Below the pieces are notes generated by a model. It saw only the letters and a list, made by a program, of their open reading frames with translations. It was not told the DNA's origin and ran no database searches. Positions 3,502 to 62,239 of a stretch of 64,000 nucleotides of DNA are shown here, piece after piece; position 1 is the stretch's first letter; every line of letters begins with the position of its first letter. Position numbers and translations under genes: made by a program. Where the stretch lies: NCBI RefSeq assembly GCF_964340395.1, contig NC_135551.1, forward strand, positions 27,263,380 through 27,327,379, read 5' to 3'. The DNA comes from Glandiceps talaboti (taxonomy: Eukaryota > Hemichordata > Enteropneusta > Spengelidae).

Positions 3502-4563
3502 TAAAAATACCTTTAGGAATGAAAATGAGAACCATCTAGGTGAATGAATTGAACCGTTTATTACATGTCATTCCTTGATATCAATGTTTCAAGGTGGGAT
3601 ATAATCTGCAGCTTTTCATCCTGCCAGTGAGTACATCTTCATCTCCAGAAACTTATCACCTCAGTGAAATAGAAGTAGAAATATCAGAAGTACTATGACT
3701 ATTGTTTTTAAAATATACAGAAACTGGCTAGAATCTGTTTCCTTGTCGTGAATAGCATAGATGGTCAGTCACATTAATTGTAAGACATGAAAATTTAATA
3801 ACACCATTAATTAATTCAATGGAAGTAGAGGTGAATTTAATCCTTATGGCCATGCTCTATTTAGTGCCAAACATATGATCCGTGGAACAAAGTCTTCTGA
3901 CTTCACTGCGTTGTCCATGCACAGAATTTTAGTACAGTTGTGTTTTTTTTTTATATTGTATTATTTAACTTTAACTGTGCCGAATAAAACACACAAACAA
4001 AGAAATCACGAATGTCCCACTGTAAAAAGCAGTCGCTGGTGGCGCTCCACACCTTCCAATCGCTTTGTTGTGTCATGTACCGGGGGGGGGGGCGTACATG
4101 TACACTTGTAAACCTAATATCTATTCTTATTTTCAAGGTAAATCTCAGTTTTTGCATCACCAAAAGTGTGCGCATAAGCCACGAAATAACATAAAATTAC
4201 GCTTCATGGTTTTGTTGAGGACCGACTGCAGCATGTCTGGAAGCAATAAAATCACCAGAGAAATCACGGCGATCACGATACCATGACATCATGATTACAT
4301 TATGTAAATTTACTCAGCCCGATGAGGTACCAAACGATTGTACTCTTTCTGACCTGTACATTCGATGTATTTGCAAATATGTATCTTATGGTAAATTCAG
4401 TCATTTGAATCAACCGAAAGTTCAATTTTACATAAAGGGCACATTTTCTGTATCATGAAAGTATTATATAGTTGGCTTGTGCCGCAATATTTGTAATGAA
4501 AAACACTATATCACGACTACATTTTACGCACTACTTTCAGTGACAGAAATATTTTCGATCAAA
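3502..4563. other. Upstream flank of MTF1
   Basis: This should contain the MTF1 promoter and 5' UTR. It includes a G10 run at 4081-4090. I see no convincing TATA box or metal-response element core (TGCRCNC) close to the start, and no upstream coding exon. Confidence 0.4.
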
Positions 4564-7500
4564 ATGGCGGAAGTCAAGCAGGAGGACTGCTCAGACAACG
4601 AAATAGAAGAAAATCAATTAGTTGAGGAAGAAGAAAACCATCGAGATGAAGATTTAGATGAAGACGAAGGTGACGAAAGCAACGATGCTTTCGTTAATAC
4701 GACGTACGACCAGACGGCAATTTTCATCGAAGGCGGTGGAAATAGCCAGAAATGTGGCTCGGGTGAATCGTTAATGGCGGACAGTGAATCGGGTGGTGTT
4801 TTAGTCAGTGCGGAGAGTGGTGCTTATATACACCATACGATCTCGCCCAATCAAATCCACATGCACATTAATCCAGGAGACAATTTTATGCCTGATGATA
4901 TCGGTGGAGCCACACTAACCTTGGAAACAAGTGACCCCGATACCAAAACAAAGGAGGTGAAACGGTACAAGTGTAGTTATGAAAGCTGTACAAGAACTTA
5001 TAGCACTGCGGGCAATTTAAAAACACACCAAAAAACTCACAAGGGAGAATACAGTTTTACGTGTACTCAAACAGGCTGTGGAAAGGCCTTTCTTACGTCT
5101 TATAGTCTGAAAATACATGTGCGGGTACATACGAACGAGAAACCCTTTTCGTGTGACATGCAAGGGTGTGAAAAATCTTACAATACGCTATACAGGTAAG
5201 GCATGTACGGGTGGGCTATAAAGAATTCGTTTTGATCACGTTTCCACTGTCAGCATGTTTTAAAACAATATGTCACTTTAACAGTGTCCACTTATTGCAG
5301 ATGATACAAATCAGGTTTATGCTAGGGAGTCTCACCCTATTCTTTTCTTTAACTCAGACTCCTTAGCTTGAATACTTTGTATTATTGTGCAGTTGATCCA
5401 CTGTTTTACACTCTTGCCTTTATTATAAGTTTGATAATAGGCATGTGGTACTTCTTGAACGTAACTGCTTCCATTATTGTGGTAATGAGACAGTACACCT
5501 GCAGTGTGTTCCACGGGTCTTAGCACTATAGCAATAGTTTGGTTCTGTGTACCTTCCCATACACTACATGTACAAAATGTAATCAGCAAGGTAGTTATCA
5601 GCTTCAGTTACAACAAACTACATGTGAACTGACTGCAGTAAAGGTGGCGGTTTTCCCCTCAGTCTCGATCCTCCACTCGGAACTGCTACAGAGTCCATAA
5701 TGTAAAGTTTCAATCTAAACTCAAGTGACAGATCATGTGAATTTTTGTTGAGAATAACACTTACTTCTCAAAAAATTAAGGATATATAAAAAGCTAGCTA
5801 CATATGATTCCTGTGAGGTCATCATCTTGAAAAACAACCAAGTGATCTAAATCTTGATTTGACACATAAGTGAATACAATAACCAACCACATATATACAA
5901 TATGTATTCATTGCTGGTAATGTTGTTTCTTTAAAAAAGAAACAAGTGTTAAACTTAAATAAAGACCCATTTTGAAAAAGATTAAACATTAGGTGTGAAA
6001 AACAGTTATCTGACAAAAGCTATAGAAAAAGTTGGCCAAGCACAAAAGAATTATTGTATGTACTCCTCATGGCTCCACTGATAAGATAACACTAATGCGA
6101 GAATGTGAGATTGAAACCCTCACCTTTAACTGAAGTAGAGCTAATTGTCACATGCTATTTGAAGAAATCAAACCTTGTATTCAAGTATACCGTCAGTTAA
6201 TTTAGAGTACAAGACTTTTATTACATGGGACTTGTTTACTGTTACTGACCTTTTTGACTCTAGCAGTTTTTATCGTTTTTATAGTGTTCAGCTCTGATGA
6301 ACTTTTAGGGTATATGGAGCTTTACAAGTGCTATTATTATTATTATTATTACATGTACTTAAATGTGAAGGAAATCCATATATGCTATCAAAACACTAGA
6401 CGATGTTTTAAATGTCATCAAAGACTTTCATCAACATTAAGGGACGATTGCACAATGTTGCACAAGGTCAATAAACAAACACCCTTCATTTAGGTCAAAA
6501 CCCCCTCCCGTAAATGAACATTCACATCATGCGACATCACACGTTTTATATGATGTAAACCATGATGAAAACTAGTGGTCACACCACTTTGAGCAATGCA
6601 ATGTAAAACCATGACGATAAACACATTAAATGCTACCAGAAACCAGCACCATATCTCACATTAGAAGTAAATTTTTATCAATTTATCATCTCAGTAGTAA
6701 ATACAAAAGCTGTAATCATTGAAGGAGTTAACATTTTCAGTCGAAATTTGGTTCGAAGTGTGAAAATGAAGTTCAGCAATCGCATTGACGTCAGACCCCC
6801 TCCACCGTCCCCCTCCCCCTAAACGAACCAATTTTGCTTATTGAGTTTGTGACATTGTGCAGTCATCCCTTACATTGTTCTTGAAAAGTTCACTCACCGT
6901 GTACGTAAGTATTTTCACTCAAGTACATGTAACAAAGATTATAAACTCAGTTTGTGAGTAAATTTGTATTGTACTGGAGGAAGAAGAAGGCTAAAACCTT
7001 TTTCATTTTTTCAACAGACTTAAAGCACATAAGAGACTACATTCTGGGCAAACATTCAACTGTGATTCCGATGGCTGTACTAAATATTTTACAACTCTAA
7101 GTGATCTTCGTAAACATGTAAGAACACATACAGGAGAAAAACCATATAGGTGAGTATGTGCTAAGATGTAGTGTTATAGTGAAAATATGTAAATAGAGAG
7201 AATGGCCATGTAAAGTAAGTGTTTGGTAAGTAAAGGAAATACACCAAGGCACTGTTAGTGCCAAGTTGCATTTTCTACTCACACCATGTACCATGTACCA
7301 CAATCTGATTAAAATCTGATGTTAGATAGGCTGGTTTTCCTGTGTTTACCTTTATTCCATCGTTATTGCGTCTTTTACGTTAGTTTTTTTTTTCCTAACG
7401 TAAAAGACGCAATAACGATGGAATAAATGTAAATACAGGAAAACCAGCCTATCTAACATCAGATTTTAATCAGATTGCATGTACCATGGCTCCTTTTGTG

Positions 7501-13329: not shown

Positions 13330-16300
13330 CGTGCATGCGTGCATGTGTGCGTGTGTGTGTGTGTGTATGTGTATGTATGTCAATACAATGTGAACTTCAC
13401 ATGTATGTCACTGGTATTACATTACCTATCATGATAGTACTGCTTGTCCTGGTAATTTATGGTACAAAAAATGAATGTATCTACAGTGTCTACTGTATGA
13501 TGACACTTCAACATTCCTACAAAAGCTTATCATCTAGTCAGAATTAAACCATGTGATGTTTAGTCAATCCATAGACCCTACACCAAGGTGGTGTAGGGTC
13601 TATGGTCAATCAAACTCTGCCTGAAAGTTGATATTTGTCTTGAAGTTGACTATTCTATTCCCCATGTACCTATACACTAACTACTGACCATATGTGAATG
13701 TTCTAATACCCACTAAACTATTAGGCACTGTGTATAAGCTCAGTTCTGCTTGTAATAAATTATATTCCCCATTTCATTCGTTCGTTCATTCATTCATTCA
13801 TTCATTCATTCATTCATTCATTCATTCATTCATTCATTCATCACCACAGTCACTGCAGGAAGGCATGCAAGCTTGACAATGACAGTGCTTACCCTCAGCT
13901 AGAATAGATTAGTTAATGTGTAACTATTTTCCAGCCTCTCAATCTTCAGAAACTTTGAATATGAGATTCAGTTTTCAGTCCAATTCAATTCAATTGAGAT
14001 GAACTCGAACCTACTGGTCAGGTTGCTAAAAATAAGACCACATGAAACCAGGCAAATAGAATTATGATATTGCCCTCCTAAGGTTGTAGATCCGAGGTAA
14101 AGTTTGGCAGCTCATCTGGTGAAAGGCCCAATACAAAGTCATTTGGTTTGTACTGGATTATGTTTGAAAGTTCAAAGGTAACCTATGTAATTACATAGTT
14201 AGTTTGTTACATGGACTTAGCAGACACTAAGTGTTTGAAGGCTTAATTTCCACTTTTTATAATATCTCAGTTGATGATGATTTTATCTTTGTTTCTTCTG
14301 TAGGTGTAATTATTCCACCTGTGGGAAAGCCTTTGCTGCCAGCCATCATTTGAAAACACACATAAGAACACATACAGGTAAGACATGACTCAGCAATTTG
14401 AAAACACAACACAGACAGGTAAGGTATGACTCAGCATTTGAAAACACAAAGAACAATTGATTTGAAACAATGAAAGAACAATGGACCCAGCAGTACAAAT
14501 AACAATGTAAAGTAGCTGTAAAGCATCTTTTGTTTTAATAATTGTGTGGAAATTGATATGCATGCAAAGCAGTATGGTTATCCAATATATTATTATTGTG
14601 CATTCTTTTATGAATGCATATAGAATTATGGATTGGTATCCTACATGCTATGTTGCCATGGCAAGGTATATCACCTTGGCAATGAAAGTATAATAAACCA
14701 ATGAAGAGATGATGATATTTGTGGTGATTCATTTTTTCAGGTGAAAAGCCCTATACATGTAAAGAAGATGGATGTAGTCGTGCCTTTACTACACAGTATA
14801 GTTTGAAGAGCCATTTAAAAGGACATCAAAATAAACAACAGGTAAGGAATACTTTATCAAGTAAATATTGTATCTGGTGAAAAAACACCACAGGCTCATT
14901 TTTACTTCATTTTCCTAAATGATCTCAGCTAGTTTTACAGGTGTCAAAATCCGTAAAAGTTCTGGAATTTTCAACCAGTTTCTTAAAAATGCTGGAAAAT
15001 GTATTTCACTCTAGGAAACTCTGGTGAATAAGATTTGTTGTGTGATCTTAAACCATTTTAAAAGAGCTGGACAATATATTTCACGGCAGGAAACTCTGAA
15101 GAATGAGATTTGTAAAGTGATCAGGAGTAAAATATCAAAAAATTTTATTGCTTTATCAGTAAACTGACTGTCATGTCAGTAGTGCACCCTCAAAGTTTTG
15201 ATGTGCCACTGACAAAGAAATTTCTTGTCACCCACCAAAATTTGACATTGCCCTATCATTTACTATGTGATGGCTAACAAGGAAACATCTATACCACATC
15301 AAGTTTTTTTGGCCTTTTGTCATCTATCAGAAGATATATATATACCCAGTATATCAAAGTGATCCATATTAGGTCGGTTGTTTTTTCTTGGGGGTGGGGG
15401 TGGGGTGTTATCTATCAGAGGGAACGTTGTTATGATATGTGAAATTGTAGTCTGCTGCCTGTTGGTGAATTGCAAATAAAATTCTCCTGGAAAATGACAT
15501 TAGTTGTCTAAAAACTACTTAAGATTGACTATCCTGGCAACCATGGAAGTTTTATGCATCTACAACATGACTCTTTTATCATGTATAACTGATGGTATGA
15601 TTTACAGAAACCTGGTGAAAACTCAGAATCTAGTCAAGAACAACAGGTTATTAATGTATGTACACACGGAGAAGTGTCGTTAGAAGCTTTACCAAGCTAT
15701 GAAACTAGTATGGCAAATAGAGTGTTACTAACTACTACCGCCGCTCCAAGTCAGGTCTTACAACAACCACTGGTAAGTGGAAGATGTAGTGTTTATGAGT
15801 ACTAAAAAATTAACCAATACACAACCTAATAGGGAACTTGCAATCCAGACTGAGCATGCTCAGATGCAAAGGACTATGGGATTATCTATGGTTATCATAA
15901 TACCTAATCTGGAGTTACTGATAAAATAAACCTCCCATAATTGTCAGGGTAACTGTAAATTGATAATTTGTGGTTACAAACAATGCATCAACATTGTTTA
16001 CATTACTAATTGATTAGTATTTATTATCACATTTCCCATGATGCAACATTCAACATGGTGGGTTTGCAAGTTCCCTATTTGATTAGCTGAGAACTTTTGA
16101 CTGCAAACAGTCAGTTTTGTTCACTCTATGATATATGGTACTGTTTACTATGATCACGTGACAAAGTCATATGGTTCAGGATTCCAAGCATCAATAGGAT
16201 GTCTACAGTAAAGAACATGTATAGTTACTTTGGAATAGTAAATTAGCAACATATGCAATCGTTCAATCCATCTATTTCTACAGACCTTGATCATGCATTG

Positions 16301-24294: not shown

Positions 24295-43952
<19,658 letters not shown>

Positions 43953-50358: not shown

Positions 50359-50818
50359 ATTTCTCATTGCATTCTTCCTTTGGTGGTAATTATGATTTTA
50401 ATCACTGACAGACTAAGAATTAAAACTGATAATGTAAATGACAATTGATTCTGAGTTAAATCTTCATCAATAACCCTCGCAATCAATATTGTGATCATTG
50501 GCGTCGTTGTCATAGCAACGTTATAAAAAAGTGTGTACGAACACGTTGTGGTGACAGTATGGAGAGTTATATAATAGAAGAAGCGACTGAAGCTTTCATT
50601 TTGGTTACGAAATGAAAATTAATTTTAGCTGTTGAATACATGGAGGTTAACGTTGACAATCAAATTCGTAGTAAATAGCACATGGGAATTTTAATGAATA
50701 CATAAATTAACAGATACTTTAGAAAAAAAATCCAATATATCATTATTGCGCCGATTATATTACGTAATGTTTCTGAAATTAATTCATTCATATTAATATA
50801 ACAAATGATACATCCAAC

Positions 50819-50853
50819 CATAGACCCTCCATCAACATAGTGGAGGGTCTATG
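50819..50853. mobile_element. 35-bp palindromic micro-element, copy 4, with 7-bp direct repeats
   Basis: CATAGACCCTCCA at the left and its complement at the right. ATCCAAC flanks both sides exactly (50812-50818 and 50854-50860). Confidence 0.85.
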
Positions 50854-50860
50854 ATCCAAC

Positions 50861-60607: not shown

Positions 60608-62131
60608 TCAATACTGTGGTATAAGTTCATAGCTACTCAGTGGTTTGACGAAATGGTAGTCTGCTACACCACAATGGGGACATTTAACATTCTGAGAATA
60701 GTCACTGAAGTAATTCATCCCATGACGTACATCAATGACTGGTTTATCACAGTGCTTGCAAGCTACGCGACTGGCACAACATGGCCGGGCTGCGAATATG
60801 TCATATTTGTACATGGTACCTAACTGATGATGGCTGCCGTCCCAACGCGACTTGCAACTCCTGCATATAATATGTGCACCCTCCAAGCAGTTGACACACA
60901 CAGCGCTAAGATATACCGTTTTATCTTCCAGGTATACCCGCATACAATTTTCACTGTGGCGCTGTGGGGTGAGGAAAAATGTTCCATCAATCAAAGGATA
61001 TTTATCAAAAACAAGTAAGTGTTGGCTGCAAAGTGTACATGTCATATAACTGGTCGTATAAGTACTTAGTGTAGCTAGAACGAACGCTCGTATATCATCG
61101 TTGTCGTCGTCCATTCGTATATGATAGGGGTTCAGTTTATGTTTTGGTAGAACGTTCTGGAAGGATGTGTAGTCGATGCGGCGTAGAAGTGTTATATTTG
61201 GCTTGCTGGCAAAATGCACGTTATTATTGTTGTTGTTCGGCTGCGTGAGTGCGTTCATGTTCACTTGGGAACAGGAAGTGTTGCTGTTGACGCCTTGATT
61301 GTTGTTGTTGTTGGTTGTTAGTGGACTCACTGTACGTCCTCCAGTGCCCATCACGTTGTTGAAGCCATGAAAGTTTCCAAATGTCCCGTCACTGTTTCCC
61401 TTCGTGCGGTTGAACAACTCGGTGTTAGCGCTGCCCTGATATCCATTACCATTTCCGTTATACGCGATGGGGAACTCGAACTTTGTTGACACCTTTCGAT
61501 TTGCACTTCGAGGGGACAACGCGTAGTCAGCACTGCTTGGAGGGCTGTGGTTTTCAGTCGAGGACGTCGAACCCTGCCGTTGAAGTTGTTTGCCGTTGTT
61601 CGACACGCCAACATGGCCTGGTAGTGGTCTAGTATTTATGCTAGGTCGATCACCTGACTTCTTCTTTCGTCGGACTCTACGCAGAGCTTCGTCCGGATTT
61701 CGAGGTGGGATCCAGTCGAGGTCTTTCCGTAAATGGCCCTTCCCACATTGACAAGAACATGCTTTCCATGCCAGATCATACCCTTTCTTTGTCCATAAAT
61801 TTTGTCTGCGTTGTTTTTCGGACCAACTTCTCGCCCGTCCAGACGACCGTAAAAATGTCAAAACATCGTCTTCCCAGATATTAAAGCATTCACGGTGCAT
61901 ATACTCACCGTTCGTGCACTCCGGGTTGTTACATACAACTTTAGCCACATCAAGAGGATCATGTATGTTAACAGGGTCGTTATTTAGCAGACATCCATTT
62001 GGAGCACTACATTTCACAGTCTCGTCACCATTTCTATCTTCGCCTTCGTCATTAGGGTCGTCAAGTTGTTGTTGCTGTTCACGAAACTGGCGATTTTTCT
62101 GCTTAGCACGTTCCTCTCTCGAGTACGGCAT
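60608..62131 (-). CDS. HECA: Headcase protein homologue (507 aa, single exon)
   Basis: Headcase restrains cell-cycle entry and growth. In Drosophila it acts with Unkempt and opposes mTOR-linked proliferation of progenitors. The N-terminal headcase domain (about 40-145) starts C-S-A-P-N-G-C and includes M-H-R-E-C-F and W-K-A-C-S-C-Q-C-G. A basic patch R-R-V-R-R-K-K-K follows (151-158). Residues 165-312 are Ser/Asn/Gly-rich with poly-Asn. The C-terminal headcase domain (about 315-507) carries C-x2-C pairs (C-T-L-C, C-V-N-C, C-R-S-C, C-K-H-C, C-P-H-C) and D-G-T-F-F-L-T-P. The ATG has an in-frame TGA nine codons upstream, which supports the start. Length is close to human HECA (543 aa), but human HECA is split into several exons and this one is not. 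It converges on taxilin. Confidence 0.97.
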   Translation of the reverse strand: MPYSREERAKQKNRQFREQQQQLDDPNDEGEDRNGDETVKCSAPNGCLLNNDPVNIHDPLDVAKVVCNNPECTNGEYMHRECFNIWEDDVLTFLRSSGRARSWSEKQRRQNLWTKKGYDLAWKACSCQCGKGHLRKDLDWIPPRNPDEALRRVRRKKKSGDRPSINTRPLPGHVGVSNNGKQLQRQGSTSSTENHSPPSSADYALSPRSANRKVSTKFEFPIAYNGNGNGYQGSANTELFNRTKGNSDGTFGNFHGFNNVMGTGGRTVSPLTTNNNNNQGVNSNTSCSQVNMNALTQPNNNNNNVHFASKPNITLLRRIDYTSFQNVLPKHKLNPYHIRMDDDNDDIRAFVLATLSTYTTSYMTCTLCSQHLLVFDKYPLIDGTFFLTPQRHSENCMRVYLEDKTVYLSAVCVNCLEGAHIICRSCKSRWDGSHHQLGTMYKYDIFAARPCCASRVACKHCDKPVIDVRHGMNYFSDYSQNVKCPHCGVADYHFVKPLSSYELIPQY

Positions 62132-62239
62132 GATTTGGGTTGATTTGGAGTTTTTTTCTGCTCAGATTTTAGCTTATGGACGACGGGCTGAAAAGGTGTG
62201 TTGTTGTTGTCGAGATATGTTTTTCTGCTGAACGTGCAA

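Follow-up and report, generated by a model that had tools for sequence, protein, structure and literature searches.

Short hairpins between 7-bp target duplications read as probable excision scars of P-superfamily transposons

The window (the whole 64-kb stretch of DNA that was analysed) contains four hairpins of 29-35 bp. Judging from sequence, we propose that they and their many relatives elsewhere in the genome are footprints left by the excision of a cut-and-paste P-superfamily transposon, and not mobile elements themselves, a reading to which we assign a probability of about 0.93. An earlier note on this DNA had reported four copies, two with exact 7-bp flanking repeats and two with flanks matching at 6/7 and 5/7; all four were present at those places with those flanks (Table 1). 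Its description of the copies as perfect hairpins holds nearly for two of them, at 13570 (17-bp arms, with the next base included, and a 3-nt loop) and at 37327 (16-bp arms and a 2-nt loop), but not for the others, in which the arms are unequal. The copy at 50819 has 13 perfectly paired bp and a 9-nt loop, and the right arm of the copy at 34339 is reduced to 8 nt. At up to three mismatches the arm matched the window eight times, against 0.65 expected, and the match at 6792 lay outside any copy.

Table 1. Putative excision scars in the window and their flanking words; scars were split by hand into retained ends and filler.
Feature	Position	Strand	Flank match	Basis
Scar 1, left TSD copy GTCAATC (7 bp)	13563-13569		7/7	flank reading
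Scar 1, left end 17 nt (ACACC variant, shared with the 9.2-kb element) + 2 nt + right end 16 nt	13570-13604	+		split by hand
Scar 1, right TSD copy GTCAATC	13605-13611		7/7	flank reading
Scar 2, left flank word GTCAAAA	34332-34338		5/7	flank reading
Scar 2, left end 17 nt + filler 4 nt + right end 8 nt	34339-34367	+		split by hand
Scar 2, right flank word GTTAAAG	34368-34374		5/7	flank reading
Scar 3, left TSD GTCTATC	37320-37326		6/7	flank reading
Scar 3, left end 15 nt joined bluntly to right end 17 nt (CCACCCA variant)	37327-37358	+		split by hand
Scar 3, right TSD GTCTATT	37359-37365		6/7	flank reading
Scar 4, left TSD ATCCAAC	50812-50818		7/7	flank reading
Scar 4, left end 18 nt (with one substitution) + filler 3 nt + right end 14 nt	50819-50853	+		split by hand
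Scar 4, right TSD ATCCAAC	50854-50860		7/7	flank reading

With four copies in 64 kb, the window far exceeds the mean density of the genome. The 226 kb of DNA flanking the loci held three CATAG...CTATG hairpins with flanks matching at 5/7 or better (two of them being one duplicated segment), so that the four in the window form a local excess. Local hopping was considered as its source and set aside: the two-armed copies on contig C1 (n = 49) were not significantly clustered at any of four distances (p 0.14-0.34), and the excess may thus stem from the selection of the window. The window also contains a perfect inverted repeat at 7351-7427 (TTTATTCCATCG...CGATGGAATAAA), in which an 11-nt loop separates arms of 33 bp; it has no relation to the scars and is possibly another small foldback element. 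A perfect hairpin with no adjoining 7-bp duplication lies at 26056-26086 (TGGGCTACCAATTTC..., 15-bp arms, 1-nt loop). A Headcase (HECA) homologue lies at 60608-62161 on the minus strand (Pfam 4.3e-82 and 1e-45), and an ORF with C2H2 zinc fingers at 4459-5196 on the plus strand (zf-C2H2, 9.2e-9).

The genome (590 Mb, 47 contigs) holds 2,126 exact matches to the 15-mer arm and none to the reversed-pattern control. Two-armed matches, with both exact 10-mer arms 0-30 bp apart, number 1,034 (control 0), a count in which a nested pair enters twice and duplicated segments are included. The 7-mer ends CATAGAC...GTCTATG gave 3,496 matches against 203 for the control; these are counts of the pattern as such, irrespective of a target-site duplication (TSD), and they take in the other end variants CATAGACAATGG and CATAGACAGTGG. 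The earlier note had proposed a genome-wide arm search with a tally of the flanks, and this confirmed the 7-bp repeat. In 51 two-armed copies, 48 drawn from C1 by position and three from the window, the 7-bp flanks were identical in 35, and 47 reached at least 6/7. Here, and in the tallies of second TSDs, retained arms and junctions given below, copies whose surroundings were the same entered as one (L119 with L118, L139 with L001). When the right flanks were shuffled 1,000 times, the mean was 0.75 exact matches and 1.75 at 6/7 or better (maximum 6 for the latter). Exact flanks of 8-11 bp were found in none of the 51 and of 6 bp in two. The TSD target profile, symmetrised over both strands, lies near GTTWAAC. 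The two copies of the TSD differ at 14 of 336 positions (n = 48, the three copies with a match below 5/7 being left out), which indicates that the insertions are not brand new.

A second tally followed single arms outward. The left 7-mer recurred at 6/7 or better within ~60 bp downstream in 35 of 49 sampled arms, three scars having been entered from both sides; by our estimate, chance would give ~3 or 4 of the 49. Two of the 35 accepted second TSDs (L006 and L146) are doubtful and resemble chance hits. In the 14 rows lacking a recognisable second TSD, a deletion may have run into the flank, or the copy may have decayed or be unrelated. We also observed an identical duplicated scar at L118 and L119 (C1:18171666 and 18175579) with mismatched flanks (CTTAAAC/GTTTGTC), which is perhaps a recombinant of two scars.

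The link to the P superfamily comes from a search of the genome with the P-transposase RNase H profile PF21787, which returned 13 matches. The second best, on contig C24, lies within a 9,179-bp element (C24:18349274-18358452; element A) bounded by perfect 37-bp terminal inverted repeats (CATAGACCCTACACCAACAGGATACGCAACTGCGGCA) and an exact TSD (ATGTAAC/ATGTAAC). The terminal repeat reads CATAGACCCT[C/A]CACCAAC followed by AGGATACGCA..., and the arm variants tied to element ends are CCACCAAC and ACACCAAC only. The earlier note had called for longer elements with the same ends that encode a transposase, and element A is such an element. The view that the 7-bp duplications arose by transposon insertion is likewise borne out. 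As for the mobilising enzyme, to which the earlier note had put no name, the evidence now points to a P-superfamily transposase.

On its plus strand, element A carries, in order, Pfam matches to RNaseH_N (2.2e-25), the GTP-binding insertion (6.4e-8) and RNaseH_C (7e-8). The TNP-like_RNaseH_N and RNaseH_C matches are above the Pfam cut-offs, and the insertion match (PF21788), which covers positions 66-115 of the 119-position profile, lies between the two RNase H parts. The 721-aa ORF had a single PDB sequence match up to E = 1, to the P transposase (6p5a/6pe2, E = 0.001), and the C-terminal ORF alone had none. Neither Pfam, applied to the 721-aa ORF and four other plus-strand ORF segments, nor a six-frame scan for the C2CH motif revealed a THAP domain, and a short exon could be missed by these searches. 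By its domains, element A is a P-superfamily relative, and by its 7-bp instead of 8-bp TSD it is not a canonical fly-type P element. Duplications near 7 bp are also made by the hAT, Mutator and Dada classes; these were considered and dropped in view of the P domains in element A. On the opposite strand we noted a 346-aa open frame (L069 25-702 (+) and beyond) with no Pfam family match; another frame, of 114 aa and close to the right end of the element, contains a weak C2H2 zinc finger that falls short of the Pfam cut-off. These opposite-strand frames are perhaps a second transposon gene.

The best PF21787 match, on C5, belongs to a relative of element A (95-98% identity where the two align). 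A 4.1-kb member carrying the same ends is nested beside or inside it, and the far end of the outer C5 copy was not found. Of the 13 PF21787 matches, these two were linked to the ends described here. No parents were found for the CCACCCAC and ACACGAAA arms; CATAGACAAT and CATAGACAGT are further arm variants. Nine elements or deleted derivatives are visible from both ends, five of them ~1.6 kb long, and their 7-bp TSD is exact in six and matches at 6/7 in three. The genome contains 64 instances of the 21-mer that extends beyond nucleotide 18 by three bases (43 with the C variant, 21 with the A variant). At 15 inspected sites, ten continue into the terminal repeat (25-35 nt match) and five depart at 21-22 nt, four of the five being evidently scars. 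As a rough figure, ~40 of the 64 would be real element ends, perhaps from 20-30 elements, with diverged ends missed by this count. Scars would then outnumber recognisable elements by tens to one, a rough estimate that sets about a thousand two-armed hairpins, with this and related ends, against the elements. We must also note CATAGAC-ended hairpins with other inner sequences (CATAGACAATAGTGG, CATAGACAGTGGAGGGG), which occur at L067 6319-6354 and L068 977-1012 (one duplicated segment) and at places among the 7-mer-end matches; such hairpins are likely scars of further P-type lineages.

The retained ends show a sharp limit at 18 nt. Exact end matches fall from 2,126 for the 15-mer to 1,008 for the 17-mer and 744 for the 18-mer, and then to 173 for the 19-mer and 43 for the 21-mer, the last two counts including real element ends. 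Extension from 17 to 18 nt thus succeeds in 74% of cases, and from 18 to 19 nt in 23%, about the random-base rate. Among 101 sampled arms of at least 14 nt, 17 match exactly 18 nt, two match 19 and none goes further, although the parent repeat is 37 bp long; in this sample the CCACCCAC and ACACGAAA arms score as 15 and 14. The arms were drawn from L001-L030, L089-L148 and the window, and the regions L129-L148 represent 20 C1 places listed with a single arm; L031-L053 and L074-L088 had been retrieved with longer patterns and did not enter the sample. Two C1 arms outside this sample (L074 and L075) match for 22 nt and then depart. Nothing in a miniature or internally deleted element would give a reason for a stop at nucleotide 18, and the stop fits a transposase that leaves an 18-nt tail; we infer that the position of the cut sets the limit.

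This limit also bears on the possibility that the hairpins are internally deleted elements formed by interrupted gap repair, in which synthesis from a sister copy is followed by end joining, instead of by direct joining. Look-alike products do exist here (L080, 107 bp, and L086, 418 bp), and passages of a study of fly P excision (PMC2895639) describe flies making the same class of product. In the L080 copy (1501-1607), which has a 6/7 TSD, one end persists for at least 35-37 nt and the other for 17 nt; this copy looks like an interrupted gap repair that was then end-joined. Such repair, however, predicts a spread of retained lengths above 18 nt, which the fall from 744 to 173 does not show, and none of the 101 sampled arms extends beyond 19 nt, against the two 22-nt arms outside the sample. 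Gap repair can explain a minority of copies; as the general origin of the hairpins it is highly unlikely.

Junctions were compared in 69 scars with a TSD from the window, L001-L053 and L074-L148, each with a second TSD matching at 6/7 or more, a left arm of at least 10 nt and a right arm of at least 4 nt. Their total length ranges from 21 to 55 bp and 63 sequences are distinct. The arms are joined without added or shared bases in 24 of the 69, and 25 have a filler of 6 nt or more. Some fillers are copied from the end (16 nt in L029, 13 in L013, 9 in L108), and 16 of the 17 nt of the L047 filler are present, inverted, in its right flank. For these 25 longer fillers, the mean of the longest template match is 7.6 nt, compared with 5.1 in shuffled sequence, an excess that comes partly from arms broken by point mutation, with some loci picked by 20- or 21-mer patterns. 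Many copies have one arm shortened to 3-14 nt, and L144 has lost that arm entirely before a 6/7 copy of the TSD.

These junctions weigh heavily on the proposal of the earlier note that the hairpin is itself a minimal mobile element. As a minimal MITE it would be non-autonomous, moved in trans by a transposase recognising only ~15 bp, and the real 7-bp duplications at most sampled copies, the high copy number and the recurrence of a few sequences at separate sites (two of them three times each and one twice, n = 51) all speak for it. MITE copies, by definition, have one internal sequence and size in common. The 51 two-armed copies comprise 46 distinct sequences of 21-47 bp, and those that recur are simple joins without long filler, such that neither a common interior nor a common size is seen; with the stop near nucleotide 18 of a 37-bp repeat, this led us to reject MITE membership. 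Centres that vary by site, arms cut back or lost and an L047 filler drawn from the local flank all count against a mobile hairpin, which we consider very improbable.

The scars are inherited, since some are common to diverged duplicates: L115 and L116 have one scar in common within surroundings that are 93% identical, and L007 and L141 have one within surroundings that are 85% identical. Within the compared stretches, L118 does not differ from L119, nor L001 from L139. On C2 (C2:3028015-3028617, L034-L037), a scar-like hairpin lies within the unit of a tandem array with arm spacings of 53, 106 or 159 bp, perhaps a minisatellite seeded by an excision scar. Such inheritance argues against an artefact of sequencing body tissue, in which the assembly would derive from cells with the elements cut out and the scars would not be passed on. 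That scars are apparently far more numerous than elements would suit somatic excision. The diverged duplicates, the array and the differences between TSD copies nevertheless require germline inheritance and time, and we regard a somatic origin as extremely improbable.

The excision reading would involve four steps. An element with 37-bp terminal inverted repeats would insert and duplicate a 7-bp target, as is seen on the nine elements and deleted derivatives. The transposase would then cut one strand at the boundary of transposon and host and the other ~18 nt inside, leaving an 18-nt tail beside the TSD, as the stop suggests. The tails would be trimmed and end-joined, sometimes with filler from the tails or nearby DNA of the kind seen in the junctions, probably by a polymerase-theta-like pathway. 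Finally, the scars were inherited, as the diverged duplicates show. The scars are probably immobile, given that everything inside nucleotide 18 is absent. Against this reading stand the combination of an 18-nt stop with a 7-bp TSD, instead of the 17 and 8 of the fly, the THAP domain that was not found in our searches of element A, its C-terminal ORF without a PDB match, the 14 of 49 rows without a recognisable second TSD, the two 22-nt arms and the two end variants for which no parent was found. Both 17 + 8 in the fly and 18 + 7 here equal 25, and one fixed transpososome spacing may have been shifted by one base. More tentatively, at somewhat less than even odds, the genome may preserve a natural record of germline excision repairs, some thousands in number, made by a P-type clan with its own geometry (18-nt tails, a 7-bp stagger and a target near GTTWAAC) that has largely excised itself and has left the scars as its main trace.

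Many cut-and-paste transposons leave footprints too short to be detected from sequence only, so that the frequency of their movement in nature is difficult to establish. The signature of P-type elements is long, and a scar-rich genome would allow past excisions to be counted; it would also reveal the end-joining pathway used in the germline and, across animals, the cutting geometry of P-type elements from sequence. For repeat annotation, a hairpin "family" with good TSDs is not necessarily a mobile element. Footprints of Stowaway-like MITEs and mariner are described as short, in contrast to the recognisable 21-55 bp hairpin that P-type tails give here.

The closest known products are the excision footprints of the Drosophila P element. 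As set out in sections of PMC2895639, they run from an 8-bp target copy through one end of at most 17 nt, an insertion or microhomology and the other end, again of at most 17 nt, to a second 8-bp copy. The same sections note that inserts are sometimes templated and that deletion past the duplication is also marked; the 17-nt tails of the fly transposase are given there and in part of PMC7776569. The hairpins described here have the same order of TSD, end, microhomology or filler, end and TSD. According to those portions of the fly work, the fly footprints were induced in the laboratory at one site, unlike the present ones, which are natural, inherited, found at very many places, and built on ~18 nt and a 7-bp TSD. 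The zebrafish Pdre2/THAP9 P-like elements, in the relevant parts of PMC10983969, also have a P-type transposase, internally deleted relatives and a terminal repeat that starts with CATA and contains CAAC (CATACCTGTCAAC there, CATAGACCCTMCACCAAC here). They differ in having 13-bp repeats and 8-bp duplications, against 37 bp and 7 bp here, and their transposase is described in those parts as giving excision but no integration in assays. Among the matches listed in a literature search on the arm sequence and excision footprints, no description of a natural, genome-wide set of P-type scars was found. In our view, excision footprints as a kind are known, from the laboratory; what is new is their abundance as the main trace of a natural transposon clan, and the 18/7 geometry.
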